The notes beneath the pieces were generated by a model. The model was not told where the DNA came from and did no database searches. It worked only from the letters and a program-made list of their open reading frames with translations. Below, one piece after another: positions 23,410 to 39,065 of a DNA stretch of 64,000 bases (its first letter is position 1; the number at the start of each line of letters is the position of its first letter). Location: contig NZ_ML660189.1 of assembly GCF_007483665.1 (NCBI RefSeq), positions 62,001-126,000 of the forward strand, given 5' to 3'. A program made the position numbers and the translations under genes. This DNA comes from Catellatospora sichuanensis (lineage in GTDB: Bacteria > Actinomycetota > Actinomycetes > Mycobacteriales > Micromonosporaceae).

Positions 23410-23413
23410 GTTC

Positions 23414-24286
23414 ATGCCACGCTTGGCCATCGTCACACCCAGCTACGCGCCGGACGCCGAGCTGTGCGCCGATCTGGTGCGCTCGGTCCTGGTCCACGGC
23501 TCGGCATCGGTCCAGCACCACATCATCGTCCCGCCGCGGGACCTGAAGCTGTTCGCGCATCTGCGGGACAGCCGGGTGCAGATTCATCCGACCAGTGACT
23601 TCCTGCCGGGCTCGGTGCTGCCCGTGCCGGGGACGAACCTGAACGTCAACCTGCGCCGGCCGTGGCCGCCGATCCGGGGCTGGGTCCTGCAGCAGATCAC
23701 CAAGCTCGCGGCGGCGTCCCACTTCGATGCCGACGTCGTCCTGCTGGTGGACTCGGACACGGAGTTCGTCCGGCCCTTCGGTCCGGAGACCTACCTGCAG
23801 GACGGGGTCGTCCGCTTCTACCGCCTGCCGCACGCGGTCGACAACCAGCTGCCGAGACACGTGCTCTGGCACCACGCTGCGCGCAGGCTGCTGGGACTGC
23901 CGCCGGCAGAGCCGCCCTTCCACGACTACGTCAACATGCCCTGCGCATGGAGCCCCGCGCTGGTGCGCGCGATGCAGCGACGTATCGGTGAGGTCACCGG
24001 CCGGCCCTGGCAGTCGGCGGTCGGCGGCCAGCTGCACGTGTCCGAGATGATGCTGTACGGCGTGTTCGTCGACCACCTGGCCGACGAGTCGGCCCGCGGG
24101 TTCACCCGCTCGGACATGATGTGCCGCAACCACTACGACGAGGTTCCGCTCACCGAGAACGAGCTGAGAAGTTTCAGCGACGACCTGGCCGACGGCGACA
24201 TCGCGGTGATGGTTTCCGCGAAGTCCGGCACACCGCGGTCCGTGCGCCGGTCCGTGTTGGACACACTGGCCCAGCGCAGCGATTAA
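23414..24286 (+). CDS. Glycosyltransferase-like protein (resembles DUF6492)
   Basis: This 290-aa protein opens RLAIVTPSYAPDAELCADLV and carries a DxD-like VVLLVDSDTEFVRP, so a GT-A fold is likely. HIIVPPRDLKLFAHL and QQITKLAAA fit the DUF6492 group found in polysaccharide loci, whose activity is not established. It starts 4 nt after the previous stop with a GAGGAATGA box. It closes the first glycosyltransferase run; a 361-nt gap follows. Confidence 0.8.
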   Translation: MPRLAIVTPSYAPDAELCADLVRSVLVHGSASVQHHIIVPPRDLKLFAHLRDSRVQIHPTSDFLPGSVLPVPGTNLNVNLRRPWPPIRGWVLQQITKLAAASHFDADVVLLVDSDTEFVRPFGPETYLQDGVVRFYRLPHAVDNQLPRHVLWHHAARRLLGLPPAEPPFHDYVNMPCAWSPALVRAMQRRIGEVTGRPWQSAVGGQLHVSEMMLYGVFVDHLADESARGFTRSDMMCRNHYDEVPLTENELRSFSDDLADGDIAVMVSAKSGTPRSVRRSVLDTLAQRSD

Positions 24287-24647
24287 GGCCCGCTGCCCGC
24301 CCTCCGCGGTGCGTGCAGGCCCGGCGCAGAGCGGGCAGGGCGAGCCGGCCGCCGCTGTGCGGATGTCGGTTAACCGACAGGCGCGGTAATCCGACCGGCT
24401 GACGGCCGCGTCGTTTGCCAGCATGGAAGGCGATCGTTCGGAATCCGTCCCTCGGCAGCGGCGATCCGGTCACAACCGTCGTATGGACTGGGCGCGGGCG
24501 AGGCGGACCTGCCATTCTCATCCACACACCACCTCGACGGCCCGGGATGGGTCGCCGCCGCCGCGCTTATCATCGGCGGTGGCGACGACGGCGTCCGATG
24601 CCGTTCGCGTCGGCGACTCCGTTCGGCGAGATCGAAAGGACTCACGG
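24287..24647. other. Gap between glycosyltransferase and polymerase operons
   Basis: I see no gene in this 361-nt gap. It carries a perfect 16-bp palindrome at 24364-24379 and, at its right end, the AAAGGA ribosome site of the polymerase gene. A short GCCCGCT/AGCGGGC pair (24288, 24330) could be part of a weak terminator. Confidence 0.5.
24364..24379. promoter_or_regulatory. 16-bp perfect palindrome, candidate operator
   Basis: TGTCGGTTAACCGACA is fully self-complementary with no spacer, about 270 nt upstream of the polymerase start. It is typical in form of a dimeric TetR- or MarR-type site; no cognate regulator is encoded in the locus. Confidence 0.5.
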
Positions 24648-26111
24648 ATGCGCAAGATACGGGGCACGACGTACGTCGGAAAGGCGCACTCCGGATCATC
24701 GTTGCCCTACGTCGGCCGCGGGCCGTTCAGGAACTGGACACGGCCGCCGCAGTGGCGCCTCGACGCAGGCGGCCTCTCTCCGGACGCCAAGTCCAGCATG
24801 GGATCCCGGCTCATCGCCACGTTCGTCCTGCTGGCCTTCCTGTGCCCGGCCGACATGGTCATCAAAGTGGTCGGCGCGAGCGGGCACGCCGCAGGCCTGT
24901 TCGGGTTGACGCTGCTTGCGTTCTGGGTCGTCTCCAGTCTCCTGGGATTTCACGATCCGCTGCACACGCGACATCCGACGCGCGCCGTCGTCGGGCTGAT
25001 GATCGTTTCGTCCCTGTTGTCGTATGCGGCGATGCCCTTCTACAACCCGACCGAGGTGCAGAGCCTCAGCGCCCTGCGGTGGATGCTGCAGTGGCTGTGC
25101 ATCGCGGGCATCGTGGTGGTCACGGCGGAGTTCATCCGTGCGAAGCGCGACCTGATCCGCGTGGTGCGCGTCCTCGTCTGGGGTGCTGCCGTGTCGGGGG
25201 TCGTCGCCGCGGTCCAGTTCGCCACCGGCTGGGACCCGGCCGGGCTGCTGCGGTCGGTGATGCTCGGGTTCTCGCTCAATGCGGAGATCGTGCTCGACAC
25301 GAGAGGAACGCTCACCCGCGCCATCGGAACCGCCGGGCACCCCATCGAACTCGGCGTGATCGCGGGCATGATCCTGCCGCTGGCGTTCTGGCTTCTGATC
25401 TACGACGAGGAGCGTTCGCGGCTGTCGCGGCTGCTGGCGATCGCCGGGGTGGGCCTCGCGATTCCGGTGTCGGTCACGCGCAGCGCCGTGCTGGCGACGG
25501 CGATCGGGCTGGGCGTCCTCGTGGTGCTGCTGCCGGCCCGGCACCGGATGTGGATCCTGGGCTTCGCCCCGCTCGCCGCCGTGGCGGTGTTCATCTCGAC
25601 GCCGGGTTACCTGCGTACGATCAGCAGTTTCATCATCGCGGGGTCCACCGACCCGTCCGTCATGAACCGAACAAACAACTATCCGATCGTCGAGCGGCTG
25701 GTGACCGAAGCGCCGTGGCTGGGACGCGGCGGCGGCACGTACATCCAGCGTGATCTGACGAAGGTGCTCGACAACGAGTACCTCATGGCGGCGATCGAAC
25801 TGGGCCTCATCGGTCTCGTCTGCATGGTCCTCTACTTCCTCGTGCCGGTCCTGACCGCTCTGAACGCTCGGCGGATGGAGGACTGGACGATGCGTTCACT
25901 GTGCGCCGCGCTGGCAGGCGGTACGCTCGCGGCTGCGGTCTGCGGCCTGACATTCGATTCGCTTTCCTTCGCCCAGTTCGCATGCGTGCACGCGGTCTTC
26001 GTCGGGCTGTGCGGATCGTGCTGGCTGTATTCGACAGCTGACCAACCCGCCGACGACGGCGCGGTGGCGCTCGTCGGCGAGACTGCCAAGCCGGCAGCGT
26101 TCCCAGGTTAA
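24648..26111 (+). CDS. O-antigen ligase/polymerase-like membrane protein (Wzy-like)
   Basis: This 487-aa integral membrane protein has about ten to twelve predicted helices and a large loop in the second half. Family hints are FATGWDPAGLLRS, TRAIGTAGHPIELG and the periplasmic loop NRTNNYPIVERLVTEAPWLGRG, then NEYLMAAIELGLIGL, which matches the Wzy_C arrangement. It should polymerise lipid-linked repeat units outside the membrane. The ATG at 24648 has AAAGGA 8 nt upstream; the open frame before it has no membrane features. Followed after 13 nt by the Wzz-like gene. Confidence 0.87.
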   Translation: MRKIRGTTYVGKAHSGSSLPYVGRGPFRNWTRPPQWRLDAGGLSPDAKSSMGSRLIATFVLLAFLCPADMVIKVVGASGHAAGLFGLTLLAFWVVSSLLGFHDPLHTRHPTRAVVGLMIVSSLLSYAAMPFYNPTEVQSLSALRWMLQWLCIAGIVVVTAEFIRAKRDLIRVVRVLVWGAAVSGVVAAVQFATGWDPAGLLRSVMLGFSLNAEIVLDTRGTLTRAIGTAGHPIELGVIAGMILPLAFWLLIYDEERSRLSRLLAIAGVGLAIPVSVTRSAVLATAIGLGVLVVLLPARHRMWILGFAPLAAVAVFISTPGYLRTISSFIIAGSTDPSVMNRTNNYPIVERLVTEAPWLGRGGGTYIQRDLTKVLDNEYLMAAIELGLIGLVCMVLYFLVPVLTALNARRMEDWTMRSLCAALAGGTLAAAVCGLTFDSLSFAQFACVHAVFVGLCGSCWLYSTADQPADDGAVALVGETAKPAAFPG

Positions 26112-26124
26112 GGAGCTAGACAAC

Positions 26125-27030
26125 ATGGACTTGCTGACACTGTTCGCCACCCTTCGGCGGCATCGTTGGGCCACACTCGTGGTCATGCTCGTCGTGATCG
26201 TCGGCGAGGTGTTCGTCGTCTTCATGGTGCCGACGCGCTATGAGACGAGCGCGGTTTATGTGCTGGTCCAGCCACCGCCCGCCCCCACCGAAGCGCAGAT
26301 TCTGGCCAACCCCGCGCTGGGCAAGTTGAATTCGGACAATCCGCTCCTGCGGGTCGATCCGTACTCCCTCGTAGAAGTCGTCTCACAGCGCATGAGCAGC
26401 GATTTGATCGGCAAGGCGCTCGTCGCCCAGGGCGCGGACGAGGACTACAAGGTCGAGCCGAGCAACCAGATCGGCGGTGGTTCCATCCTGCTGATCACCG
26501 GCACGGGCACGTCGGCCGAGGCGTCCGTGAAGACGCTGGACCTCGTGACAAGCCGGATGCTCAGCGAGTTCAACGCGATGCAGCTCGTCAACCAGGCCGA
26601 CGCCCGCTTCCTCATCCAGGCGCAGCTCGTCAGCAAGAGTGAGACGGAACAGAAGCTGACCGGGACACTGCGATCGGTGATCGTGGTGTTCGTCGCGGGT
26701 CTGGTTCTGCTGTTCGCCGTCATCTCGATCGCGGAGGCCCGCAAGTCGAAGCCCAAGCAGACGACCACGGCCAAGGCGACGGGTGTGGCCGACGCCCCGC
26801 AGATCTGGTTGACGGACCTCGCCGAGTGGCAGCCGGCCGACGCCACTGAGGCGACGACGGTGATACCGAAGATTGCCGACAGTGCGACGGTCCCGGCCGC
26901 GGCACTGATGTCCTCTTCGAACGGATATAGTGCGATGAGTGACGGTGCGGACGGGGCGGGTCCCGGTCCGGTCGATGCGGAAAAGCCCGATGAGGCCATG
27001 GTGGAGAAGGATCCCGATCGCCCCGCGTGA
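26125..27030 (+). CDS. Wzz-like chain-length/copolymerase protein
   Basis: This 301-aa protein has an N-terminal membrane helix (about 15-37) right after MDLLTLFATLRRHRW. An extracellular segment (38-180) follows, then a second helix (about 188-206) and a 95-residue cytoplasmic acidic tail without kinase motifs. That topology fits the polysaccharide copolymerase family. The tail lacks the Walker motifs and tyrosine cluster of BY-kinases, and no separate kinase gene is in the locus. Start: ATG after AAGGAGCTAG. Co-transcribed with the polymerase. Confidence 0.85.
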   Translation: MDLLTLFATLRRHRWATLVVMLVVIVGEVFVVFMVPTRYETSAVYVLVQPPPAPTEAQILANPALGKLNSDNPLLRVDPYSLVEVVSQRMSSDLIGKALVAQGADEDYKVEPSNQIGGGSILLITGTGTSAEASVKTLDLVTSRMLSEFNAMQLVNQADARFLIQAQLVSKSETEQKLTGTLRSVIVVFVAGLVLLFAVISIAEARKSKPKQTTTAKATGVADAPQIWLTDLAEWQPADATEATTVIPKIADSATVPAAALMSSSNGYSAMSDGADGAGPGPVDAEKPDEAMVEKDPDRPA

Positions 27031-27182: not shown

Positions 27183-28616
27183 ATGCGACGCGCAGGACTG
27201 CTCAGGCCACGGCCCTTCCATCTCGTCATCGGCCTGGTGGCCGTCGGCCTGGTCGTCACCTCGTCCGCCGTGTTCGGCACGGATCGCGACGAGGCCGGCA
27301 AGGCGCTGCCCAAGTCGCCGGAGACGTGCCTCTCGGCGGCACCGACGGACGCCGGCACGGTGACGGCGCGGCCGTCCGAAGGATCAGCCGGTGGCGCGTG
27401 CGACGTGTCGGTCCGGCTGCAGCCGGTCGACGGGGGCACCGACTACTACGGCCGGTTCACCCATCCGCTGCCTACCGCTGCGTCGTTCTTCCCCATCGGG
27501 GTGTGGTTCGCGAGCGTGGTCGACCCGTCGGACATTGCCATGGACACCGAGGCCGGCATCAACCTGTACGTGGCGCTGACGGAGGACTCCCGGCTCAACA
27601 TGATCAGGGACGCGGGTTCCTACGCCATGACGAACACCCGGATGGGCAACGGTGCCGAGAGCGTCGCCTGGATGCTCGCCGACGAGTTCGACATGACCGG
27701 GGGTCCCGGTGACGGGGCTGTCAAGGGGGATGCCTGCGAGTCGCCGGATACGCCCTGTGGTTACACCCAAATGGAAAAGGCCCGCGCGTCGTTCCCGAAG
27801 GACGGCCGGATGCGGTATGCGAACTACGGCAAGGGTGTGACGTTCTGGGAGACCGACGCGCAGGCAGCGCGCTTCGTGAACGAGTACCAGGACGTCGTGT
27901 CGGCCGACAACTACTGGTTCACCGACCGCAACGTCTGCATCCCGTCGGAGGGCGGGACCTTCTTCATGGAGACCGACCTGGTCGACGGCCGCCTACCGGA
28001 GCATCTGTGCCACCGCGCGGCGAACTACGGCCTGACCATGGACCGGGTCCGCGAGCTGGTGTCGCCGGCCGGCAGCAAGCCGGTGTGGGCCTTCGTCGAA
28101 GTCGGCCATCCGTCGGGGTCTGACCAGGACGCCTGGCCGACGATCAAGCCGGATGAGATCGTGGCCGCGGTGTGGAGCAGCCTGATTCACGGCGCGCGCG
28201 GCATCATCTACTTCAATCACAGCTTCGGCGGCCCGTGCCCGTCGCACAATGTTCTTCGAGAGCGCTGCTATGCGAAGACCCGCGACACGGTGATCAAGCT
28301 GAACGCGCAGATCAAGCGGCTGGCACCGGTATTGAACGCGCCGTTCGCCATCAACGCGGTGACCGCCTCACCCGGTGTCGACGTCGCGACCAAGTGGCAC
28401 GACAACCAGTACCACGTGCTGGCCGGGTCGAAGCAGCACACGTCGCAGACTGCGGATTTCCAGCTTGCCTGCACCGGTGACGGCACTGCCACGGTGATCG
28501 ACGAGGGCAGGACGCTCCCGATCAAGAACGGCCGTTTCACGGACGCGTTCAAGGACGGAAACGCCGTGCACCTATACGAGATCAACGTGCCGGGATGCGG
28601 TTATTCAGCCGGTTGA
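27183..28616 (+). CDS. Secreted or anchored putative glycoside hydrolase
   Basis: This 477-aa protein has an N-terminal signal or signal-anchor (about 13-33, [20 protein letters not shown]). The body looks like a GH-A type TIM barrel: FPIGVWFAS at strand 1, [23 protein letters not shown] with an Asp-Glu pair that could be the acid/base, SADNYWF, and [12 protein letters not shown] with a possible nucleophile Glu. [14 protein letters not shown] follows, then a C-terminal beta-sandwich. I do not recognise the exact GH family. Its place behind the polymerase suggests trimming or release of the polymer. The 3' end overlaps the convergent acyltransferase gene by 16 bp. Confidence 0.65.
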
Positions 28617-29257
28617 CCGGCGCCGACCGGGGTCGCGACGTCCGCGACCTCGGTCAGTGGGGTCTGGAACGGGGTGAGATCGCCGAGCTGATCGATGTCC
28701 CGTTCCCACCACCGCTCGGCGAGCAGCTTCGCGATCGTCTGCTCGGAGAACCGGTACTTCACCACCCGGCCCGGATTGCCGAGCACCACGGCGTAGGGCG
28801 GCACGTCCCGGTTCACCACGGCGCCCGCGCCGATCACCGCACCGTGCCCGATCCGATTGACCTCGGGCAGGATGACCGCGTTGGCGCCGATCCACACGTC
28901 GCTGCCGATATCCAGCGGCCGGTGCTCGACCAGCCACTTGTCGGTCAGGCCGAGCTCCGGGTTGAAGAACAGGCCGCTGGTGCTCTTGAAGGTCAGCGGG
29001 TGGTTGTGGTTGACGATCCGGACATTGGCGGCGATGGAGCAGTACCGGCCGATGGTCGTGTCCCGATCGATCATCCACGGCACGAAGCAGCCGTGGCTGT
29101 ACATGCCGATCTCCACGCCCCAGTACTTCCTGAAGATCTCCCGCAGGGTCGGCGACGTGAACTCGTCGGCCTCCAGCCGGCGTAGGAGCCACAGCACCAG
29201 GCTTCGTACGCGCGGTCGGGGGATCCTGTAGGCGTTGACCAACAATCGCCGGATCAT
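28601..29257 (-). CDS. Hexapeptide-repeat acyltransferase
   Basis: This 218-aa left-handed beta-helix acyltransferase has hexapeptide turns in [39 protein letters not shown] and [20 protein letters not shown]. The close [17 protein letters not shown] is typical of CatB/NodL-type acetyltransferases. The catalytic His lies in [10 protein letters not shown]. It probably acetylates a sugar of the repeat unit. The ATG at 29257 has a GGAGG box 5 nt upstream, deciding against a longer frame. Transcribed leftward, opposite to the glycosidase gene. Confidence 0.88.
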
Positions 29258-29527
29258 TCGGCCTCCTGCCAGATGACGGTCACGGCTCGATGACAACGGC
29301 TTGGCGCGGCACACCCCACCGTGATCGGCGCGTCAAGGCGTTCTCAGCGAATCGGCTGGGAGATTACCAGGTGCGATCGGGCGTGCAGACGGTCGATCGG
29401 GAAGACGACCGACCGTCCAATGTTCGCGCGCAGTCAGCTCACCGGCTGCGCGCGGCCATTGCGCCGGAGATGCGGCGGCGATGGCGGAGGGCGGTGCGAG
29501 CGCCTTCCGCCATCGGCCAGGTGTTGC

Positions 29528-30361
29528 TCACACCGTGTTCATCTGGCGTGAGATTTTGACGAACTGTGCCGCGTTCGCGACGTAGAACGCCTCCGCATAG
29601 GGCACATACACGCGCAGTGCGCGGTAACGGTTCAGCCCGAGCGCACCGTCGGTGTAGTGCAGGCCTTTGACCTGGGAGGCGTAGAGATCGATGGCGTGCC
29701 GTTTCACGTCGACGACATCGGTGATGTCCACCGCCACGTTCGGCCACAGCGGGGACCAGATCTCGTAGCACCAGACGTCGCCACTCCAGCCGGTCAGCGT
29801 CAACGCCTCTGCCACGCCCATGGCGGCCGCGGTGTGGTCGCGATGGTGGTCCGACACGAACGGGCAGAAGACCTGGTCCGGCGCGATATCGCGCAACAGC
29901 TCCGCCAGCCTTGCGCCGATGCCCGGCTCGTGCAGCGCCATGGCACCCGTCGGGAAGTCCAGCCACTCCACACGCTCGAAGCCCATGTACGCGGCCGCCT
30001 GACGCGACTCCTCCTTGCGCGTTCGATCATCCTCCGGCGAGGCGCCGCCGGCGCAGAAGACGACGCTGATCTCACTGCCCAGTCGCCGGTGCAGGGCCAG
30101 CGTGCCGCCAGGGCCGATCACGTCGTCGTCCATATGCGGCGCCACGACCAGGATGCGCTTGCGCTCCACCGGCCGCAGCTGAACCGGCAGGCGATGGGTC
30201 ACCCGGTGCAGCCTGCGCAGCAGGCGTAGCGCGCCGAACTCGCGTATACGGCGGATGGGCGGGGTATTCAATAACGACACGAATTCCACGTTGTTTACAC
30301 CAGACCACGATGAGGACGGGCGGACATCGGAGAAGAGGAGCCAGGCAGGGTTGACATCCAT
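29528..30361 (-). CDS. PIG-L family deacetylase
   Basis: This 277-aa zinc-dependent N-deacetylase (LmbE-like) has the metal site in ILVVAPHMDDDVIGPGG (His76, Asp78-80) and the second motif in SDHHRDHTAAAMG. The family removes acetyl from GlcNAc-type residues, so with the acyltransferase nearby it could edit N-acetyl groups on the polymer or its precursor. Start ATG 30361 has no good ribosome site; a TAAACT hexamer lies 12 nt upstream, so the start is uncertain by up to about 25 residues. Confidence 0.87.
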   Translation of the reverse strand: MDVNPAWLLFSDVRPSSSWSGVNNVEFVSLLNTPPIRRIREFGALRLLRRLHRVTHRLPVQLRPVERKRILVVAPHMDDDVIGPGGTLALHRRLGSEISVVFCAGGASPEDDRTRKEESRQAAAYMGFERVEWLDFPTGAMALHEPGIGARLAELLRDIAPDQVFCPFVSDHHRDHTAAAMGVAEALTLTGWSGDVWCYEIWSPLWPNVAVDITDVVDVKRHAIDLYASQVKGLHYTDGALGLNRYRALRVYVPYAEAFYVANAAQFVKISRQMNTV

Positions 30362-30738: not shown

Positions 30739-32382
30739 ATGACTGCTGATCGCACGGAAACCGCCGCGCCCGGCTTCACCGCCACCGGCGCGCCATCCGG
30801 ATCGGCGCACCGCGACTCCGCCATGGACGAGACGGCCGAGCTGCCGGTGACGATGCGCGTGCCGACGGTCAGGGACGGTCAGGCCACGGAGACGGCGGAA
30901 CCGTCGTCGCCCGCGGTCGAACCGCCGGCGGGCCGGTTGCCGCGCGGGGCCGTGCTGTGGTCGTACGTCCTGACGATCGGCCGCTTCGGGACCACGGCCG
31001 GGGTCACCATCGTCATGGCCAAGTTCCTCGAACCCGCGGATTACGGCCTGGTGGCGCTGGCCATGGTATGGGTCACCTTCGCGCAGTCGCTGTCCCTCCA
31101 CGGGACGGTGCAGGCCATCGTGCAGCGCGAGGAGGTCGACGACAGCCACTTCGACGCGGCCTTCTGGACCACGGCGGGCACGGGCGTGGCGCTGGCGGCC
31201 GTGTTCGCGATCGCGGTGCCGCTGTGGGCGGGGCTGAACCAGACTCCGGACCTGATCCCGATCTGCCTGGCGCTGGCGCCGGTGATGGTGCTCAACGCGA
31301 CGGTCGTGGTGCCCGACGCGATCCTGCGCCGCCAGCTGAAGTTCCGCTCGCTGTCGGTGCGCTGGCTGCTGGCCGGGCTGGTCAGCGGTGTCGTCGGCAT
31401 CGTCGGTGCGATCATCGGCTGGGGTGTCTGGGCGCTCGTGGCACAGCAGCTCGTCATGACCACGTTCTCGGCCGTCGCCGTCTGGATCGCGGTGCAGTGG
31501 CGGCCGCGGTTCCGTCGCATCGGTCCCGCGCTGCGAGAACTGCGGCAGTACTCACTGCACTCGCTGTCGGGCTTCTTCGCCTACTTCGTCGCGATGCGCA
31601 CCGACGCGCTCCTGCTCGGCCCGCTCTTCGGCCCCACCGCCATCGGCCTCTACCGGTTCATCACCCGTATCCCCGAGATGCTCAACGACGTCGCCACCGG
31701 CGGCCTCGCCCAGGTCGCGATGCCCCACCTGTCGCGTGCGGCGCCGTCCCGCGAGGAGTTCGACCGTTACGCCGCCCGATACATCCACACCGGCACGCTG
31801 ATCGCCTACCCGGCGCTGGGTGTCCTCTTCGCGGTCGGTCCGCTGTTCCTGCAGTGGATCGGTCCCCAGTGGACCCCGGCCGGATCGGCGTTCCAGGTTC
31901 TTTGCGTCGCCATGGCGGCGGTCGCACTGGGTCCGCTGATGGGTGCGATCTACCAGGCGGCCGGCCGTCCGGACACGCTGGCAGCGATCAACTGGGCGTC
32001 GGCCGCGGCGACCGTCGCCGGCATGCTGGTAGCGGGAGCGCTGTTCCACGATGCCGATCCCGGCACGCAGGTCCTGGCCATCGCCACGACGTTCGCGATC
32101 CTCCAGTGGGTCACCACCATCGTCGCGCTCGCGCTGATGTTCTCGCAGGTCATGATTCGTTCGATGGCCGCCGGCCTGCGGCCGTCGCTGCCCGCGGCCG
32201 TCGCTGCGGTCGCGGCCGGCGCTGCGGGTCCCGCGGTCCGGCCGCTGCTGCACGGCACGAACGCGACTGTCGGCCTGATCGTCACCGGTGTCGTCGCCGC
32301 CGCGGCGGGTCTGGCGGTGCTGACGGCAACCGAGCGCGAGGTGTCGACGCGCGTCGCCCGGATCGTGCGCGGCCGTCGCTGA
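30739..32382 (+). CDS. Oligosaccharide flippase family protein (Wzx-like)
   Basis: This 547-aa membrane protein of the MOP superfamily has a cytoplasmic N-terminal tail of about 70 residues and then some 12 to 14 helices. Marker segments are SYVLTIGRFGTTAGVTIVMA, KFLEPADYGLVALAMVW and FGPTAIGLYRFITRIPEM, the last typical of polysaccharide flippases. It should move undecaprenyl-linked repeat units across the membrane for the Wzy-like polymerase. The ATG at 30739 has AAGGA 7 nt upstream; a GTG three nt earlier is out of frame. Confidence 0.9.
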   Translation: MTADRTETAAPGFTATGAPSGSAHRDSAMDETAELPVTMRVPTVRDGQATETAEPSSPAVEPPAGRLPRGAVLWSYVLTIGRFGTTAGVTIVMAKFLEPADYGLVALAMVWVTFAQSLSLHGTVQAIVQREEVDDSHFDAAFWTTAGTGVALAAVFAIAVPLWAGLNQTPDLIPICLALAPVMVLNATVVVPDAILRRQLKFRSLSVRWLLAGLVSGVVGIVGAIIGWGVWALVAQQLVMTTFSAVAVWIAVQWRPRFRRIGPALRELRQYSLHSLSGFFAYFVAMRTDALLLGPLFGPTAIGLYRFITRIPEMLNDVATGGLAQVAMPHLSRAAPSREEFDRYAARYIHTGTLIAYPALGVLFAVGPLFLQWIGPQWTPAGSAFQVLCVAMAAVALGPLMGAIYQAAGRPDTLAAINWASAAATVAGMLVAGALFHDADPGTQVLAIATTFAILQWVTTIVALALMFSQVMIRSMAAGLRPSLPAAVAAVAAGAAGPAVRPLLHGTNATVGLIVTGVVAAAAGLAVLTATEREVSTRVARIVRGRR

Positions 32383-32660: not shown

Positions 32661-32924
32661 ATGCAGATCCGCGAGAAGCTCGTTGACTTTGTGGTCAACA
32701 ATTACCTGTTCGGCGACTCGGCCCGGATGCCGAGCGACCACGAGTCGCTCGTGGACCAGGGCATCGTCGACTCGACCGGCGTCCTGGAGCTCGTGGAGTT
32801 CCTCGAGGAGCAGTTCGGCATCGAGGTGCTGGAGACCGAGACGGTCCCGGACAACCTGGGTTCGATCGCCAACCTGACGAAGTACGTCGAGGGCAAGAAG
32901 GTTGGCAGTGGCCTGGCGCGATGA
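32661..32924 (+). CDS. Stand-alone acyl carrier protein
   Basis: This 87-aa four-helix carrier has the phosphopantetheine attachment motif DQGIVDSTGVLELVEFLEE, with Ser38, and the helix III start FGIEVLETETVPDNLGSI. A GTG four codons upstream is possible, but ATG 32661 has the better GGTGGGGA box. It overlaps the next gene (acyl-AMP ligase) by 17 bp. In this setting it is probably loaded by that ligase and not used in fatty acid synthesis. First gene of a six-gene operon. Confidence 0.9.
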   Translation: MQIREKLVDFVVNNYLFGDSARMPSDHESLVDQGIVDSTGVLELVEFLEEQFGIEVLETETVPDNLGSIANLTKYVEGKKVGSGLAR

Positions 32925-34416
32925 GCGCTTGACCGCCGGCGACCAGCTGCTCGGCCAGGGGCGCCCGGACGATGTCGCCGTCGTGGACGGCCCCCACCGG
33001 TACACCTATCGCGACCTGCGCGCGGCGGTGGCCCGACTGATCGGTGCCCTGGACGCGCTCGGCCTGCCGGCCGGCTCGCGGGTCGCCGTGCTCGGACCCA
33101 ACTCGTTCTTCTGGATCGCGGGCTACCTCGCCGCCATGAAGTCCGGCTGCGTCGCGGTGCCGGTGGCCGACAAGGCCACCCCGGAGGAGGCGCGCCGCAA
33201 CCTGGGCCTGGTCGACGCGGCGGCGGCGTTCGTGGATCGCCGCGCGCTGCGCCGGTTCGGTCCTGTGCTCGAGGGCGTCGCGCTGATCACCGACGAGGCG
33301 CTGACCTCGACGGAGCCGGCGGACCTGCCCGCTCCGGCCGAGTGCGACCTGGATGCCGACGCCGCGCTGATGTTCACCTCCGGCACCACGTCGCGGCCCA
33401 AAGCGGTGCGGGTGACCCACCGCAACATCCTGGCCAACACCGACTCCATCGTCGGCTACCTCGGCCTTCGGGCTGACGACCGCGTGCTGGCGGTGCTGCC
33501 CTTCTACTACTGCTACGGCGCCTCGCTGCTGCACACGCACCTGCGCGTCGGCGGCCGGATCGTGCTGCAGCACTCGTTCGCCTTTCCCGAGACCGCACTG
33601 GATCTGCTGGAGCGGGAGGAGTGCACCGTCTTCGCCGGCGTCCCGTCGACCTTCCAGCTGCTGCTGCGTGCGGCCAGCTTCGCCAGCCGTGAGCTGCCGT
33701 CACTTCGCGTGATCCAGCAAGCCGGCGGGAAACTGGCGCCGGTGCTCGTGAACGAGCTGCTGGAGGCCAAGCACACGGCGCAGCTGTACGTCATGTACGG
33801 CCAGACCGAGGCGACGGCGCGCCTGTCCTACCTGCCATCGGAGCTGCTGCGCAGCAAGCCCGACTCGATCGGCCGGGGCATCCCGGGCGTGGAGCTGCGC
33901 GTGCTCGACGAGGCAGGCCACCCGGTCCGGCCGGGCGAGCAGGGCGAGATCTATGCCCGGGGCGAGAACATCTCCCCGGGTTACCTGGGGGCACCGGAAG
34001 AGTCGGCGGCCAAGTTCACCGCGTCGGGACTGCGCACCGGAGACCTCGCGACCGTCGACGAGGACGGCGACGTCTTCATCCTCGATCGCCGGGACGACTT
34101 CATCAAGTCGTGGGGCTACCGGATCTCCAGCCAGGAGGTCGAGGACTGCGCGCTGCGCATCGACCGGCTCACCTCGGCGGCCGCCGTCGGCGTGCCGGAC
34201 CTGGCGGCCGGCGAGGCGGTCACCCTTTTCGTCGTGGCCCGGCCCGGTGCCGAGGTCACCCCGGAAGAGGTGCTCGCCGTCTGCCGCGAACACCTCGCCA
34301 AGCACATGGTGCCGGCCAGCGTGCTCGTGGTGGACGCCCTGCCGCTGACCGCCAGCGGCAAGGTGGCCAAGGCGCGCCTGGTGACGGCAGCCACCGACGG
34401 CACACCCACGGCATGA
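32908..34416 (+). CDS. AMP-dependent acyl synthetase/ligase, ACP-loading type
   Basis: This 502-aa ANL-superfamily adenylate-forming enzyme has the phosphate loop LMFTSGTTSRPKAVRVTH (about 154-171) and A5 as YVMYGQTEATARLSYLP. The hinge region is GDLATVDEDGDVFILDRRDD followed by IKSWGYRISSQEVE, and the A10 lysine is in LTASGKVAKARL (about 487). It should activate a carboxylic acid and load it on the adjacent ACP; the acid cannot be read from sequence. GTG 32908 has AAGG 6 nt upstream; TTG 32902 is the alternative. Confidence 0.92.
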   Translation: MAWRDERLTAGDQLLGQGRPDDVAVVDGPHRYTYRDLRAAVARLIGALDALGLPAGSRVAVLGPNSFFWIAGYLAAMKSGCVAVPVADKATPEEARRNLGLVDAAAAFVDRRALRRFGPVLEGVALITDEALTSTEPADLPAPAECDLDADAALMFTSGTTSRPKAVRVTHRNILANTDSIVGYLGLRADDRVLAVLPFYYCYGASLLHTHLRVGGRIVLQHSFAFPETALDLLEREECTVFAGVPSTFQLLLRAASFASRELPSLRVIQQAGGKLAPVLVNELLEAKHTAQLYVMYGQTEATARLSYLPSELLRSKPDSIGRGIPGVELRVLDEAGHPVRPGEQGEIYARGENISPGYLGAPEESAAKFTASGLRTGDLATVDEDGDVFILDRRDDFIKSWGYRISSQEVEDCALRIDRLTSAAAVGVPDLAAGEAVTLFVVARPGAEVTPEEVLAVCREHLAKHMVPASVLVVDALPLTASGKVAKARLVTAATDGTPTA

Positions 34417-34440
34417 CGAGCCGATGAGCGAGGGAACGCG

Positions 34441-35364
34441 ATGACGAACACCGAAGTCGAGACCGCCGCGCCGCAGACAGCGCGTTCGCGTGGAGGTTGG
34501 CGCAGGCCCGGCCGGCTGATCGCGGTGGCAGCAGCCGCCGTGGTCCTCGCCGGATCCGGATTCCTGATTCTGAACGGAAAGGACGAGGCTGTGGCCACGG
34601 ACGAAGTGACCGGTGGCGTCGCCGCCAAGGAAGTGACCGCGGCCGATCTGACGAAGGTGAGCCAGACCAGGGTCTTCTTCGGGCACCAGTCGGTCGGGTA
34701 CAACGTGCTCGACGGCGTGGCCGCGGTATACGGTGCGCACAGCCTCACCGCCCCGCCGGTCGAGGAGCGCCGGGATGCGCCCACCGCGACGAGCGGTGTC
34801 GTGGTGCACGCGACCATCGGCGAGAACGGCAAACCGCTCGACAAGATCAAAGACTTCGACGCGCTGATCCGCGGCGGCGTCGGCGCCCAGGTCGACGTGG
34901 CGATGATGAAGCTCTGCTACATCGACATCGCGCCCGGCACCGACGTCGACGCGATCTTCGCGGCGTACCGCGACACCATCGCGGCGCTGGAGCGCGACTT
35001 CCCGAAGGTCACCTTCGTCAAGACCACCGTGCCGCTGACCACGCAGACGGGCCGGCTGTCGCAGCTCAAGCAGTGGGTCAAGGGCACTGCGGACAGCGAC
35101 CTGCTGGGCCCGGCCGCGAACGCGACCCGGGAGCGGCTGAACCAGCTGATCCGCAAGGAGTACGGCGACGCCCATCTCTTCGACGTCGCCGCGGTGGAGT
35201 CCACCGCGCCGGGCGGCGACCGGGTCGGCGGCACCCACGGCGGGCAGCCGTACTTCACGCTCGCGGACGCGTTCGCCTCGGACGAGGGCCACCTCAACGG
35301 CGACGGCGCGCAGCGGGCGGCGACGGCCTGGCTCGCCGCCGTAGCGCAGGCGTCGTCGAAGTAA
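34441..35364 (+). CDS. Membrane-anchored SGNH-hydrolase-like protein
   Basis: This 307-aa protein has an N-terminal anchor helix (about 29-48, IAVAAAAVVLAGSGFLIL). The extracellular body has VFFGHQSVGYNVLDGV near its start and DEGHLNGDGAQRAA near its end, which together resemble the Ser and Asp-x-x-His parts of an SGNH/GDSL fold. Overall identity is not recognised. Its place inside the ACP-ligase operon suggests it moves the activated acyl group to, or removes it from, the exported polymer, comparable in idea to AlgJ/AlgX; that is inference. It starts 24 nt after the ligase. Confidence 0.65.
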   Translation: MTNTEVETAAPQTARSRGGWRRPGRLIAVAAAAVVLAGSGFLILNGKDEAVATDEVTGGVAAKEVTAADLTKVSQTRVFFGHQSVGYNVLDGVAAVYGAHSLTAPPVEERRDAPTATSGVVVHATIGENGKPLDKIKDFDALIRGGVGAQVDVAMMKLCYIDIAPGTDVDAIFAAYRDTIAALERDFPKVTFVKTTVPLTTQTGRLSQLKQWVKGTADSDLLGPAANATRERLNQLIRKEYGDAHLFDVAAVESTAPGGDRVGGTHGGQPYFTLADAFASDEGHLNGDGAQRAATAWLAAVAQASSK

Positions 35365-35372
35365 CCGCGACT

Positions 35373-36047
35373 GTGAACGTCGGTACCGACATCGTCTCGG
35401 TCGCGCGGGTCGCGGCCCTCATGGACCGCAGCGGAGCGGCGTTCCTGCAACGCTGGTTCACGCCGGGCGAGGTCGCGTACTGCGTGGGCAAAGCGGTGCC
35501 GAGCCGGCACGTCGCGGCACGGCTGGCCGCGAAGGAGGCAGTGCTCAAGGCGCTGCCGTTCGCGTGGTCCGGCCCGGTGCCGTGGCGGATGGTCGAGGTC
35601 GTGAACGGCGGGCACGGAGCGCCGGGCATTCAGCTGTCCGGCGCCGTGCTGGCCGAAGCGGAGCAGGCCGGTGTCGTCGAGATCCGCATCTCGATGTCAC
35701 ATTGCGACGAGTACGCCACGGCCGTGGCCATGGTGACCTCGTCCGCACGACGGCCCACGCCGCAGCCGGCGGCGCGGGCCGAAGCCAGCCAGTCGGGCGC
35801 CCAGGTGCGCCCGCTCGAAGCGACAGGTGGTGCCGTGGTGGATCGCGGACAGGTCGAACAGGTCCTGGCCGAGTGGTCGGGCATGGGGGAGGCGGACGCC
35901 GACCCCGAGCTCGCGGCGCTGCGGCTGACGATCCTGTTCGAGGACGTGTTCGACGTGACGCTGACCGACGACGACATCGACCTGGCCGTGCTGAGTGACC
36001 CCGACGCCATGGTGCGGGTCCTCGGCCGCGCCCGTAGCGGAGCGTGA
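35373..36047 (+). CDS. Holo-ACP synthase fused to an ACP-like domain lacking the carrier serine
   Basis: This is a 224-aa two-domain protein. Residues 1-122 are an AcpS-type 4'-phosphopantetheinyl transferase: VGTDIVSVARV (metal ligand Asp6), RLAAKEAVLKAL (Glu55) and ISMSHCDEYA. After a Pro/Ala linker (123-155), residues 156-220 look like a carrier-protein helix bundle (VEQVLAEWSG, LRLTILFEDVFDVTLTDDDI), but where DSL should be it reads DPEL, so no phosphopantetheine can attach there. The start is GTG, 8 nt after the previous stop. It probably activates the ACP at 32661. I cannot see any stop or frameshift separating the domains. Confidence 0.85.
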   Translation: MNVGTDIVSVARVAALMDRSGAAFLQRWFTPGEVAYCVGKAVPSRHVAARLAAKEAVLKALPFAWSGPVPWRMVEVVNGGHGAPGIQLSGAVLAEAEQAGVVEIRISMSHCDEYATAVAMVTSSARRPTPQPAARAEASQSGAQVRPLEATGGAVVDRGQVEQVLAEWSGMGEADADPELAALRLTILFEDVFDVTLTDDDIDLAVLSDPDAMVRVLGRARSGA

Positions 36048-36051
36048 GCTG

Positions 36052-38073
36052 ATGTGCGGGATGTGCGGCGTCGCCTCGTTCGACCAGACTCCTGACCGCG
36101 AGCTGCTGCTGGACATGATGCGGCGGCTGGTGCACCGCGGTCCGGACGGCTGCGGGTACTTCCAGGACGACCGCGTGGCGCTGGGGCACACCCGGCTCGC
36201 CATCGTGGACACGGCCGGCGGGGCACAGCCGATGAGCAACGCCGACGGCAGCCGGTGGGTGTCCTTCAACGGCGAGATCTTCAACTACGTCGAGCTCGCC
36301 GAGGAACTGCGCGGGCTGGGCCACACGTTCCGGACCTCGAGCGACACCGAAGTGATCGTGCACGCGTGGGAGGAGTGGGGCGAGGACTGCTTCCGCCGTT
36401 TCAACGGGCAGTGGGCGGTGGCCCTCTGGGACCGGCGGGCGCGGCGGCTGGTGCTGTCCCGGGACCGGGTCGGCGTCCGGCCGCTCTACTACGCCCGCAC
36501 CCCGTCCGGCCTGCTGTTCGCCTCCGAGGTGAAAGCGCTGTTCGCCGATCCGCGCCTGCCGCGGGCCTTCGATCCGGCAGGTCTCGACGAGACGCTGACC
36601 TACTGGTCCACCGTCGCCCCGCGCACCGTGTTCCAGGGCATCGAGCAGCTGCCGCCGGGACACTACGCGGTGTACGACGAATCCGGGTTCCGCACCGTGC
36701 CGTACTGGCGCATCGAGTTCCCGGACCGGCAGCAGCCGCTGCCGGACCTGCACGAGACCACCGAGTTGCTGCGCGACAAGCTCGTGGAGGCCGCGCGGCT
36801 GCGTTTCCTGCGCAGCGACGTGCCGGTGGGCGCCTACCTGTCGGGCGGCCTCGACTCCTCGATCACGACGGCGGTCGTCGCCCGGTACACCAGGGCCCCA
36901 CTGCACACGTTCTCGCTGCGGTTCTCCAGCGACGAGTTCGACGAGGGCGGCTACCAGAAGATCATGGCCGCGGCGCTGGGCACGCAGCACCACGACATCG
37001 TGGTGGGCCCGCGTGACATCGCCGACGTGTTCCCGGACGTGGTGCGGCACGCCGAGACCCCGTTGCTGCGCGCCGCCCCGGCGCCGCTCTACCTGCTGTC
37101 GAAGCTGGTACGCGACAACGGGTACAAGGTCGTCGTCACCGGCGAGGGCGCCGACGAGGTGTTCGCCGGCTACGACATCTTCCGGGAGGCCCGGGTGCGG
37201 CGCTTCTGGGCCGCCGACCCCGGCTCGGCCAAGCGGCACCGCGCCGCCGAGCTGCTGTACCCGTGGATGGTGCGCTCGCCCGGGCAGGCTCCCGCGTTCG
37301 CGCGCAGCTTCTTCGGCCGCAACCTGGACGCCACCGACCCGGCGCTGTCGCACCGGCCCCGCTGGGACGCGACCGCCGTGCTCAAGCGGATGCTGTCGCC
37401 GCAGCTGCAGGCGGCGATCGGCGACGCGGACCCAGCCGACCCGGCAGGGCTGGCAGGCGCGCTGCCCGACGGCAGCGAGCGCTGGGATCCGCTGGGCCGC
37501 GCGCAGTGGCTGGAGATGACCACGCTGCTGTCCGGTTACATCCTCGCGTCGCAGGGCGACCGGATGCTCATGGCGAACTCGGTCGAAGGCCGGTTCCCGT
37601 TCCTGGACGCCAACGTGCTGGAGTTCGCCGCCACGCTCCCGGCCCGGTACAAGCTCTTCGGGCTGGACGAGAAGCACCTGCTGAAGCGGGCCTTCGCCGA
37701 TCTGGTGCCGGAGGAGATCCGCCGCCGCCCGAAGCAGCCCTACCGGGCACCGGACGCGGCGAGCTTCTTCGCCGCCGGCACCCCGGACTGGTTCGACGAG
37801 GTCACATCCGCGCGTGCGGTGGCCGACGCGGGCGTGTTCCAGCCCGCGCAGGTCGCGGGGCTGGTCGCCAAGTGCCGCCGCACCGGCGGCGAGCAGATGA
37901 GCAACACCGACAGCATGCGGCTCATGGCCGTGATCTCGACTCAACTCACCCACCGGCAGTTCATCGCAGGCGACGGCGGGGCTGCGGCCTCGCCGCTGCC
38001 TGAACTGCAGGTGGCAGTGGATATGACCCGCAGTGACAACGCGTACGACAACCACCATGGAGGCAACGCATGA
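36052..38073 (+). CDS. asnB: Asparagine synthase-like glutamine amidotransferase
   Basis: This 673-aa AsnB-family protein has the N-terminal nucleophile Cys2 in MCGMCGVASFD. The class II glutaminase domain (HRGPDGCGYF, SFNGEIFNY, SSDTEVIVHAWEEWG) covers about 1-210. The synthetase domain has the ATP loop YLSGGLDSS (about 262-270) and VTGEGADEVFAGYD. Length is within the usual 610-680. Here it more likely amidates a carrier-bound acid or a sugar acid than makes free asparagine; similar amidotransferases occur in exosortase-linked polysaccharide loci. Starting at 36061 would also give an MCG start. Stop overlaps the next start by 4 bp. Confidence 0.92.
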   Translation: MCGMCGVASFDQTPDRELLLDMMRRLVHRGPDGCGYFQDDRVALGHTRLAIVDTAGGAQPMSNADGSRWVSFNGEIFNYVELAEELRGLGHTFRTSSDTEVIVHAWEEWGEDCFRRFNGQWAVALWDRRARRLVLSRDRVGVRPLYYARTPSGLLFASEVKALFADPRLPRAFDPAGLDETLTYWSTVAPRTVFQGIEQLPPGHYAVYDESGFRTVPYWRIEFPDRQQPLPDLHETTELLRDKLVEAARLRFLRSDVPVGAYLSGGLDSSITTAVVARYTRAPLHTFSLRFSSDEFDEGGYQKIMAAALGTQHHDIVVGPRDIADVFPDVVRHAETPLLRAAPAPLYLLSKLVRDNGYKVVVTGEGADEVFAGYDIFREARVRRFWAADPGSAKRHRAAELLYPWMVRSPGQAPAFARSFFGRNLDATDPALSHRPRWDATAVLKRMLSPQLQAAIGDADPADPAGLAGALPDGSERWDPLGRAQWLEMTTLLSGYILASQGDRMLMANSVEGRFPFLDANVLEFAATLPARYKLFGLDEKHLLKRAFADLVPEEIRRRPKQPYRAPDAASFFAAGTPDWFDEVTSARAVADAGVFQPAQVAGLVAKCRRTGGEQMSNTDSMRLMAVISTQLTHRQFIAGDGGAAASPLPELQVAVDMTRSDNAYDNHHGGNA

Positions 38074-39065
38074 CCAGCTCGGCCACGGCGTTCGGGCCGG
38101 ACAGCCTGCGGATCGACGCCGATCTGGAGATGGCCCGGATCTCGGCAACGCTGACCCAGTACCTGGCGAACACCAAGCGCCGGGGCATCATCGTCGCCCT
38201 GTCCGGTGGCATCGACTCCAGCGTCGTCGCGGCCGCCTGCGTCGCCGCCGTCGGCAAGGAGCGCGTGTTCGGCCTGCACATGCCGGAGCGCGACTCCTCG
38301 GACGACACGCTGGGACTCAGCCGCCTGGTAGCCGACAGCCTCGGCATCGAGTCGGTGCACGAGGACATCACCCCGCTGCTCGACGCGGCCGGCTGCTACC
38401 GGCGGCGCGACGACGCGATCCGGCTCGTCTGCCCCGAGTACGGCCCGGGGTACAAGTCGAAGATCGTGCTGCCCAGCGTGATCGACTCCGACAGCTTCCG
38501 GCTCTACTCGGTGGTGGTGCAGGCACCCGACGGAACGCAGAGCAAGCACCGCCTCACCACGGAGGCGTACCTCGGCATCGTCGCCGCGACGAACTTCAAG
38601 CAGCGGGTCCGCAAGATGATGGAGTACTACCACGGGGACCGGCTGAACTACGCGGTGTCGGGCACCCCGAACCGGCTCGAGTACGACCAGGGCTTCTTCG
38701 TGAAGCTCGGCGACGGCTCGGCCGACGTCAAGCCGATCGCGCACCTGTACAAGACGCAGGTCTACCAGCTCGCCGACCACCTCGGTGTGCCGGCCGACAT
38801 CTCCGCCCGGCCGTCCACCACGGACACCTACTCGCTGCCGCAGTCGCAGGAGGAGTTCTACTTCTCGCTGCCGTACCAGCGGATGGACCTGTGCCTGTAC
38901 GGCCTCAACAACGGCATCGCCGTCGACGAGGTGGCCGAGGCGACCGACCTGACGGCCGAGCAGGTGCTGCGGGTGTACCGGGACATCGAGCAGAAGCGGC
39001 GCACCTCGAACTACCTGCACCTGGCGCCGCGGCTCGCCGTGGACGTGCCGGAGATCAAGCACTGA
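38070..39065 (+). CDS. NAD-synthase-like PP-loop amidotransferase
   Basis: This 331-aa protein of the NadE/adenine nucleotide alpha-hydrolase fold has the PP-loop IVALSGGIDSSVVAAA (about 41-56) and VSGTPNRLEYDQGFFVKLGD. The segment DVKPIAHLYKTQVYQLADHL also matches NAD synthases. It has no glutaminase domain, so it needs ammonia from solution or a partner. It is longer than typical NadE (about 270) and is coupled to the AsnB gene by an ATGA overlap, so it may be a repurposed paralogue that amidates an adenylated acid. Ordinary NAD synthesis cannot be excluded. Confidence 0.85.
   Translation: MTSSATAFGPDSLRIDADLEMARISATLTQYLANTKRRGIIVALSGGIDSSVVAAACVAAVGKERVFGLHMPERDSSDDTLGLSRLVADSLGIESVHEDITPLLDAAGCYRRRDDAIRLVCPEYGPGYKSKIVLPSVIDSDSFRLYSVVVQAPDGTQSKHRLTTEAYLGIVAATNFKQRVRKMMEYYHGDRLNYAVSGTPNRLEYDQGFFVKLGDGSADVKPIAHLYKTQVYQLADHLGVPADISARPSTTDTYSLPQSQEEFYFSLPYQRMDLCLYGLNNGIAVDEVAEATDLTAEQVLRVYRDIEQKRRTSNYLHLAPRLAVDVPEIKH

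Follow-up and report, generated by a model that had tools for sequence, protein, structure and literature searches.

A conserved ligase, carrier-protein and amidotransferase operon at the end of a Catellatospora polysaccharide locus and its possible role in acyl supply

Introduction

The exosortase A-associated ligase (TIGR03098) and amidotransferase (TIGR03108) are of the same enzyme kinds as those of the operon described here, whose relatives, together with an acyl carrier protein (ACP), are found in exosortase loci such as L060. A term search of the text of the 2006 exosortase paper (PMC1569441) gave no match. A related core of asnB, ACP, ligase and nadE genes lies in a row on pSymB of S. 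meliloti, with 33.6% identity to our ligase and 48% to our ACP. Excerpts of PMC7232532 report that the ligase SMb20650 yields acylated ACP SMb20651 in E. coli and that it is unable to replace FadD for long-chain acids; SMb20651 is also named in excerpts of PMC9386255 and PMC5686131. We infer that SMb20650 and SMb20651 belong to the pSymB core locus, because pSymB has a single ACP place (E 0.001). For the glutarimide ACP-AT-AMT loading module, which uses a discrete ACP, an AsnB-type enzyme is proposed to amidate a free carboxylate (excerpts of PMC4853412). In Dlt-type D-alanylation, an aminoacyl group is exported from an ACP via an MBOAT protein (DltB) and an SGNH protein of the DltD type. In the portions of the open-licence PMC literature that were covered no description of the set of ligase, ACP, AsnB and NadE-like enzyme was found, and a search for a link to methanochondroitin returned nothing.

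Results and Discussion

Architecture and conservation of the operon

The window, a stretch of 64,000 nucleotides of Catellatospora sichuanensis DNA, contains six ORFs on the + strand that are tightly spaced or overlapping and form a single operon (Table 1), as the initial annotation had described. The operon occupies the end of a Wzx/Wzy-type polysaccharide locus, and the setting claimed for it, after flippase, polymerase and glycosyltransferase genes, was found as well, with genes for a Wzx-type flippase, Wzy_C, Wzz, GT2 and an initiating sugar transferase lying upstream.

Table 1. Features of the operon and of the surrounding polysaccharide locus, in window coordinates
Feature	Position	Strand	Basis or remark
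ACP with DSTG phosphopantetheine site	32661..32924	+	ATG inside a longer GTG ORF
AMP-forming acid ligase	32902..34416	+	PF00501 (AMP-binding), 267 bits; PF13193
SGNH-fold protein, one N-terminal helix, predicted extracytoplasmic	34441..35364	+	AlphaFold2, Foldseek, conserved residues
AcpS and ACP-like fusion	35373..36047	+	GTG start chosen
AcpS-type phosphopantetheinyl transferase domain and linker	35373..35822	+	PF01648, TIGR00516; Foldseek to AcpS structures
ACP-like domain without phosphopantetheine serine, fused to AcpS	35823..36047	+	hhalign
AsnB-type amidotransferase, glutaminase and synthetase domains	36052..38073	+	TIGR01536
NadE-like ATP-pyrophosphatase, NF002048 subfamily, without glutaminase domain	38070..39065	+	NF002048
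Hexapeptide (LbH) acyltransferase	28604..29314	-	Pfam Hexapep
PIG-L/LmbE-type deacetylase	29531..30361	-	PF02585, 76.9 bits
Wzx-type flippase, directly upstream of the module	30790..32382 (start uncertain)	+	PF13440, 198.8 bits
Remainder of the polysaccharide locus: initiating sugar transferase, WecG, GT2, DUF6492, Wzy_C, Wzz	18848..27030	+	Pfam

The co-occurrence of the six genes expected in other genomes of the family was confirmed in L012, L013 and L015, where they stand in identical order, with the AcpS fusion split and a hexapeptide gene inserted in L015. Because the same order recurs in these three genomes, the arrangement is not due to chance. In 146.5 kb of control DNA, six of the seven module profiles (NadE, ligase, ACP, AsnB, SGNH and AcpS) had no match, and the sole match of the seventh (hexapeptide) was the window's own gene. 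The ligase is absent from the stretches read of L014 (about 54 kb) and L017 (about 38 kb), and the SGNH gene of L017 is truncated. Within the genus of the window the cassette is alike (NadE 93-95% and AsnB 87-97% identity) and stays near Wzx, copies of which, 80% and 68% identical, lie near the module in two congeners; unlike the cassette, Wzy (28-29% identity) and some of the glycosyltransferases (28-42%) are divergent.

A core shared by many phyla

Loci were found via the NadE-like gene, which has relatives on at least 562 stretches in a collection with one genome per species; the best 80 of these at least 562 relatives were taken, and L031 was left out as identical to L015. The counts over the resulting 79 best loci are conditional on NadE, since this gene selected them, and they draw on related loci that are not independent of each other and on many metagenome bins with mechanically called ORFs. 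The score and flank thresholds for the locus and glycan counts and for the ligase and AsnB/SGNH alignments were chosen in this analysis.

Besides NadE, the ligase is present in 67, the ACP in 65 and AsnB in 67 of the 79 best loci, with all three in 54; for the 51 best loci flanked on each side by at least 4.5 kb, the corresponding numbers are 47, 43, 45 and 39. The ligase, the ACP, AsnB and the NF002048-type NadE are a core that occurs in many phyla, exosortase loci included. The initial annotation had taken both AcpS and NadE for additions to a known set; this stands for AcpS, an extra of actinobacterial and spirochaete loci whose combination with the Ser-less ACP is nearly confined to Actinobacteria, and it was abandoned for NadE, which is part of the cross-phylum core, also in exosortase loci. 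The supposed restriction to Actinobacteria was likewise given up, as 59 of the 79 best loci are non-actinobacterial.

The absence of an exosortase was confirmed, with PF09721 (E 0.001) detected in none of the six module-bearing genomes of the family. The module differs from the exosortase A-associated set in that its ligase (302.8 bits against TIGR03098, cut-off 592.35) and AsnB (423.4 bits against TIGR03108, cut-off 816.9) score far below both cut-offs, and in that it has AcpS, the Ser-less ACP and the SGNH protein. It differs from the S. meliloti pSymB core in that AcpS, SGNH and other window genes were not found beside the latter, near which no glycan gene is listed. To our knowledge, no chemistry is known for any complete member of the cassette family.

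The ligase and its acid substrate

Which acid might the ligase activate? In an alignment with an amino-acid adenylation domain, Arg307 of the window ligase falls on a residue that is predicted, from the numbering of that domain, to line the acyl pocket. This predicted acyl-pocket site holds Arg in 71 of 71 aligned ligases, namely the window's and those above 550 bits from the best NadE-found loci; lower-scoring ones, such as fragments in L022, L038 and L052 and a 453-bit ligase in L073, were left out. An arginine at such a position would be expected to fit an acid with a second carboxylate. At the amine-binding site the window ligase has Cys, and Asp is found there in 26 of the 71 ligases; the acid therefore probably differs between lineages. 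We propose that the ligase would use ATP to activate a small dicarboxylic acid and would then load it on the ACP.

A ligase for long-chain fatty acids is less likely in view of the invariant arginine and of the S. meliloti relative, which, as reported in PMC7232532, does not sustain the use of long-chain fatty acids in vivo. The same two observations weigh against a wider scheme in which ligase and ACP would carry a long-chain acid for N-acylation, as in the exosortase-linked N-acyl amino acid synthase systems, and AsnB and NadE would have another target, such as a uronic acid. A GNAT-like gene near some rhizobial loci (a weak Pfam match, below cut-off) would suit such a scheme, but no FeeM-like N-acyltransferase was seen among the 28 window ORFs in a general Pfam scan, and AsnB accompanies ligase and ACP in most of the best loci. 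We consider N-acylation with a fatty acid quite unlikely.

The carrier protein and its serine-less counterpart

The ACP is only weakly matched by PP-binding (17.5 bits, under the Pfam cut-off of 20.8), DltC (22.2 bits, cut-off 68) and NF052616 (45.8 bits, below cut-off), and the phosphopantetheine serine of its DSTG motif is present in 15 of 15 aligned sequences, the window included. The AcpS domain, with 73 bits against TIGR00516 (cut-off 59.8), would turn this ACP into holo-ACP; at another place the genome has a further AcpS-like gene, which reaches 57.8 bits, slightly below the cut-off.

The fusion of AcpS to an ACP that the initial annotation had reported is present, but the ACP half is devoid of the phosphopantetheine serine. 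This domain aligns with an ACP profile at an hhalign probability of 94%, has Glu at the serine site in the window, and shows Ser in none of 20 aligned sequences, the window included, with a gap in a 21st. Elsewhere, the Ser-less ACP-like protein is mostly encoded by its own gene, directly before asnB. Rather than acting as a carrier, it may dock to the AsnB enzyme or regulate it; a Ser-less ACP coupled to an amidotransferase would, if true, be an unusual example of a carrier protein that has become an adaptor.

AsnB, the NadE-like enzyme and amidation

AsnB exceeds the cut-off of TIGR01536 (495.6 versus 267.1 bits), and the motifs SGG[LVI]DS and GEG[AS]DE occur in 63 of 63 relatives scoring above 880 bits. 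The ATP-site motifs of both AsnB and NadE are intact. The NadE-like enzyme resembles NAD synthase in its ATP-pyrophosphatase motif and in scoring above the cut-offs of TIGR00552 and NF002048 (502.7 bits, cut-off 313 for the latter). It differs in about 50 extra residues between the two aligned halves and in its sporadic distribution (6 of 354 genomes of the family), usually in cassette context; the genome also encodes a separate NadE, within a frame of 617 residues. Because the NadE-like gene stands mostly with ligase, ACP and AsnB in the 79 best loci, the name NAD synthase is probably misleading here. In the route that we favour, the AsnB-type enzyme would convert the free carboxylate of the ACP-bound acid to a carboxamide, and the NadE-like enzyme might act on a second group or in a second step of the amidation.

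HemK-type methyltransferases, a family known for methylating glutamine amides, are encoded in nine of the 79 best loci, and one is annotated in a Mesorhizobium locus. All nine loci lie outside Actinobacteria, and their ligases are of the other type, in which Asp replaces the Cys of the window; therefore this evidence for an amide is indirect for the window. The glutarimide loading module offers a parallel, AsnB-type amidation of a carboxylate on an ACP being proposed in both cases, but the window would load its ACP by an AMP ligase instead of an acyltransferase and has the NadE-like enzyme in addition. A Pfam scan of 28 window ORFs showed neither a malonyl acyltransferase nor a polyketide synthase.

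Alternatively, AsnB, like WbpS, and NadE could amidate sugar carboxylates, with the ACP branch supplying an unrelated acyl group. Asparagine synthase genes are indeed labelled wbpS in other EPS loci (excerpts of PMC3684757). However, ligase and ACP accompany AsnB and NadE also at loci for which no glycan genes are listed in the vicinity. This points to a single pathway, and the Ser-less ACP-like protein directly before AsnB ties this enzyme to carrier-protein chemistry. We regard the formation of a uronamide as very unlikely.

The extracytoplasmic SGNH protein

The SGNH protein had no match in the Pfam scan, and its one NCBIfam match is weak and unrelated (anti-sigma factor, 17.4 bits, cut-off 100). 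In Foldseek searches its AlphaFold2 model (pLDDT 84.9) retrieved sialate O-acetylesterase, PAF-AH and the periplasmic domain of an LPS acetyltransferase. Ser84 (23/23), Asp281 (23/23) and His284 (22/23), the latter two in an Asp-x-x-His arrangement, are conserved. Membership of the SGNH hydrolase superfamily is supported by the predicted fold, the serine and the Asp-x-x-His motif.

The earlier suggestion that this protein passes the acyl group to the polymer was not borne out. The domain is predicted to lie outside the membrane; MBOAT (PF03062, E 1e-8) had no match in the window's genome (G000), in the module-bearing congeners G087 and G129, or in G075, and matched in only 5 of the 23 genomes searched; and SGNH is present in 24 of the 51 best loci with flanks of at least 4.5 kb. 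The cytoplasmic hexapeptide acyltransferase is the better candidate. On the outer side of the membrane, the SGNH protein could edit the acyl groups of the exported polymer, or move them, as an esterase or a transacylase.

The ligase, the ACP and an extracytoplasmic SGNH protein are parts of the same kinds as in the Dlt system, and the ACP has its weak match to DltC. The window nevertheless differs in its lack of an MBOAT protein and in its ligase, which has Cys instead of Asp at the amine-binding site, and the Dlt scheme provides no role for AsnB and NadE. Because no MBOAT match was obtained in G000, the two module-bearing congeners and G075, we reject a Dlt-like export of an aminoacyl group as extremely unlikely. 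Acyl_transf_3 was considered separately as a conserved membrane partner of SGNH. It matches in 31 of 37 genomes searched. One match falls within L042 and another about 9 kb beyond the module of G129, and the module contigs of G000, G087 and G075 have none; with only some of the matches placed on loci and no such family prominent among the recurrent neighbour clusters, it was discarded.

Glycan setting and proposed function

Two or more of the glycan families sought are found in 44 of the 79 best loci, one in 11 and none in 24, with some short contigs among the loci of these last two groups; absence is weak evidence, because the families sought were those previously observed in these loci, to which genes of the window were added. 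The cassette of Shinella lies beside polysaccharide transport genes. For the cores of S. meliloti and Mesorhizobium, the incomplete gene tables of PLSDB list no glycan gene within 10-12 kb. The initial annotation had named homologues apart from polysaccharide genes as evidence that would count against its reading, and these two cores supply such evidence in part.

Could the core make a small molecule of its own? A soluble or lipid-linked amide, such as a signal, an osmolyte or a lipid head group, would turn the polysaccharide setting into one use or a neighbour effect. The asnB-ACP-ligase-nadE row alone on pSymB, beside transporter, reductase and minCDE genes, the equally solitary core of Mesorhizobium and the 24 loci with no glycan family sought would agree with this. 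Against it stand the 44 loci with at least two such families, the adjoining transport genes in Shinella, and the genus of the window, where the cassette stays alike and near Wzx while Wzy and some glycosyltransferases differ. We think a stand-alone product unlikely, though it deserves some weight.

The observations concern the genes present, their order and conservation, and their predicted folds and motifs; from these we infer each chemical step of the acyl-supply line that we prefer, in which a diacid would be held on the ACP, amidated, and transferred by a hexapeptide enzyme to a sugar of the surface polysaccharide. The initial proposal of an amidated acyl group on ACP in a polysaccharide setting is retained as the best reading of the gene evidence, and we give the full line just short of an even chance. 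More broadly, the core may represent an undescribed cross-phylum pathway, in which a ligase, an ACP and two different ATP-pyrophosphatase amidating enzymes, one of them an enzyme of NAD synthesis that would have taken on a new substrate, would provide a carboxamide acyl unit for surface glycans; the actinobacterial Ser-less ACP would be a non-carrying subunit of the amidotransferase, fused to AcpS in the genus of the window. This wider proposal is possible, and in our view rather doubtful. If true, it would define a common route by which bacteria furnish their surface polymers with amide-bearing acyl groups, would offer a class of substrates to test and would correct the annotation of the NadE-like family; S. 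meliloti, a laboratory strain, is suited to tests of the core.

Candidate enzymes for acyl transfer

For the last step of the acyl-supply line, a cytoplasmic hexapeptide acyltransferase may take the amidated acyl group from the ACP and attach it to a sugar, at an amino or a hydroxyl group, ahead of flipping. A relative 66% identical to the product of the window's hexapeptide gene is encoded between the ACP and ligase genes in L015, and one 63% identical in L018. A hexapeptide gene lies on the same strand and at most 250 bases from the ACP gene in 10 of the 26 best loci with both. Against this role, the hexapeptide enzymes found near the module do not form a single subfamily, the window's gene is located 3.3 kb from the module on the opposite strand, and the closest solved relatives of the window's enzyme are acetyltransferases of the chloramphenicol/streptogramin type, which use acetyl-CoA. 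The PIG-L/LmbE-type deacetylase is a possible partner that would free an amine; as an obligate partner it was dismissed, because the sister locus L012 lacks an orthologue in the syntenic position, which is taken there by two other ORFs, one of them GT2-like by eye.

Organization of the module

The six tightly spaced genes that the initial annotation placed behind polysaccharide genes do form a single operon, in which neighbouring genes overlap or lie at most 24 bases apart. Upstream is a Wzx/Wzy-type set (sugar nucleotide genes, an initiating sugar transferase, WecG, glycosyltransferases, Wzy_C, Wzz and Wzx). The AMP-forming ligase, the AcpS, the AsnB-type and the NadE-like enzymes were assigned by profile matches; the ACP gives a weak profile match, yet the DSTG serine site is present. 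The AsnB motifs are intact in 63/63 relatives scoring above 880 bits. Because the genome carries a second NadE (617-residue frame) and a second AcpS-like gene elsewhere, the module copies of both are likely specialised.

For the 307-residue protein, Pfam gave no match and NCBIfam none of relevance. Foldseek matches of its predicted structure (mean pLDDT 84.9) include a sialate O-acetylesterase, a platelet-activating factor acetylhydrolase and the periplasmic domain of a Salmonella LPS acetyltransferase, and Ser84 (23/23), Asp281 (23/23) and His284 (22/23) are retained in the aligned sequences. We identify it as an SGNH protein with a single N-terminal helix.

Coordinates of the module and of further features in the window and in loci with NadE relatives from other genomes (L numbers)
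Sequence	Positions	Strand	Feature
Window	27183-28616		Secreted-looking 477-residue protein, no Pfam match
Window	32661-39065	+	Six-gene operon
Window	39424-40386		PAP2 phosphatase, past the end of the module
L014	9905-10297		Position in this locus, which lacks the ligase in the stretch read
L017 (Virgisporangium ochraceum)	7127-7342		Truncated SGNH gene, only its two ends left
L030	17307-18101		Second SGNH paralogue of this locus, diverged
L093	11033-12085		Conserved 350-residue protein, no Pfam/NCBIfam match

Distribution and genomic setting

The NF002048 NadE subfamily occurs in 6/354 genomes of the family and in 2/246 across the phylum, own genome counted; it also matches in a control genome, that of the archaeon Methanosarcina acetivorans. 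A five-sequence NadE alignment scanned against 84,980 species genomes gave at least 562 relatives, and the analysis continued with the best 80; since L031 is identical to L015, 79 loci were counted, by record title 20 actinobacterial, 3 from Spirochaetes and 56 others. Further groups among the matches listed are Verrucomicrobia, Planctomycetes, Acidobacteria, Gemmatimonas, Armatimonadetes, Fibrobacteria, KSB1 and several groups of Proteobacteria.

Within about 11 kb, the 79 loci (best 80 of at least 562) contain the ligase in 67, the ACP in 65, AsnB in 67 and all three in 54 cases. Among the 51 loci of the same set with at least 4.5 kb on each side, the ligase is found in 47, the ACP in 43, AsnB in 45 and all three in 39. 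As a control, 146.5 kb of DNA from the flanks of the window and from three other genomes of the family was searched: the profiles for NadE, ligase, ACP, AsnB, SGNH and AcpS had no match, and the hexapeptide profile matched the window's own gene only. All six genes occur in the same order in the window, L012, L013 and L015, the AcpS fusion being split in L015, and the ligase is absent from the stretches read of L014 and L017. The L093 protein directly follows NadE in some Planctomycetes, and its cluster covers 7 loci.

Accessory genes near NadE relatives (79 loci from the best 80 of at least 562)
Family	All (79)	Actinobacterial (20)	Spirochaetes (3)	Others (56)
SGNH	28	15	1	12
AcpS	20	18	2	0
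Hexapeptide transferase	28	16	1	11
HemK-type methyltransferase	9	0	0	9

At least two of the glycan families sought were present in 44 of the 79 loci (best 80 of at least 562), one in 11 and none in 24, the last group including some short contigs. On pSymB of S. meliloti the core (asnB-ACP-ligase-nadE) lies near transporter and minCDE genes, in Mesorhizobium it is joined by a HemK/PrmC gene, and in Shinella it adjoins exopolysaccharide transport genes. With the locus counts, these settings make polysaccharide the commonest setting among the loci examined, but not the only one.

Members of the genus have closely similar cassettes (NadE 93-95%, AsnB 87-97% identity); Wzy is 28-29% and some glycosyltransferases are 28-42% identical, the initiating transferase 77-87%, and in one congener WecG 77% and one GT2 83%. 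Relatives of the 477-residue protein are 30-31% identical in L028 and L037 and 25% at the same locus of the congener G087 (L111). Copies of the PAP2 phosphatase lie about 7 kb past the L012 module (77% identical) and about 8 kb past that of the congener G129 (L113; 58%).

Exosortase-associated relatives of the ligase (TIGR03098) and of AsnB (TIGR03108) are catalogued; the window proteins fall below both cut-offs. As first noted for the window, exosortase is missing here, with no match in 6/6 module-bearing genomes of the family; in L060 one scores above the family cut-off. The individual parts are known already. Searches of open-licence papers brought up no account of the four-gene core set, and there is a real chance that it represents an undescribed pathway.

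A serine-less ACP-like domain

An hhalign comparison places the ACP profile on residues 151-224 of the AcpS gene product (probability 94%), and the structural model has a separate four-helix domain; Foldseek returned AcpS only among the matches listed. The AcpS-ACP fusion of the initial annotation stands for the AcpS part and the ACP-like fold, but its ACP half does not have the phosphopantetheine serine. In the window this site is Glu, and Ser is found in 0/20 aligned domains (a 21st has a gap) vs 15/15 true ACPs. The domain was detected by profile search in 20 of 84 distinct loci (L012-L096), leaving out an extra match in L081, which is a true ACP. It is mostly an ORF of its own, with only a few bases between its end and the AsnB gene (as in L014, L019, L020 and L025), and looks like a partner of AsnB that has no carrier function. 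The serine-less ORF directly before asnB occurs in Actinobacteria and Spirochaetes; in the genus of the window the domain is fused to AcpS.

Ligase substrate and amidation

One Arg is conserved in 71/71 ligases (the window's and those scoring above 550 bits) and aligns with an adenylation-domain position predicted to line the acyl pocket. An invariant Arg there suggests that the acid carries a second negative charge. At the site where amino-acid adenylation domains bind the substrate amine, the window's ligase has Cys, and 26/71 ligases have Asp. Asp is found in 9/9 ligases of HemK loci vs 17/62 others, the HemK loci being related and none actinobacterial.

HemK/PrmC-type methyltransferases lie near the core in L046, L059, L061, L076, L082, L086, L087, L091 and L092. 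As HemK-family enzymes methylate glutamine amides, such genes hint at an amide product in these lineages. For glutarimide antibiotics, one study proposes amidation on an ACP (PMC4853412), a precedent, itself a proposal, for that proposed in the module.

pSymB of S. meliloti strain 1021 has a single ACP place, from which we infer that SMb20650 and SMb20651 are the pSymB ligase and ACP of this analysis. In E. coli, SMb20650 is reported to lead to acylation of the ACP SMb20651, and it is reported to be unable to replace FadD for long-chain acids (PMC7232532).

Transfer of the acyl group

Passage of the acyl group to the polymer through the SGNH protein, as originally proposed, was not borne out: profile searches found no MBOAT match in the window's genome, G087, G129 or a further genome (G075), and Acyl_transf_3 proteins did not turn up regularly beside the module loci. 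We infer instead that the acyl group would be transferred to a sugar in the cytoplasm, and that the SGNH protein would act later, in editing. The hexapeptide fold includes acyl-ACP-dependent transferases such as LpxA. Two loci, L015 and L018, have a hexapeptide acyltransferase gene placed between those for ACP and ligase; of the 26 loci (best 80 of at least 562) that contain both a hexapeptide gene and the ACP, 10 have the two close together on one strand. Two features of the window count against hexapeptide transfer: its gene lies 3.3 kb from the module on the opposite strand, and the nearest solved relatives of the enzyme are chloramphenicol- and streptogramin-type acetyltransferases.
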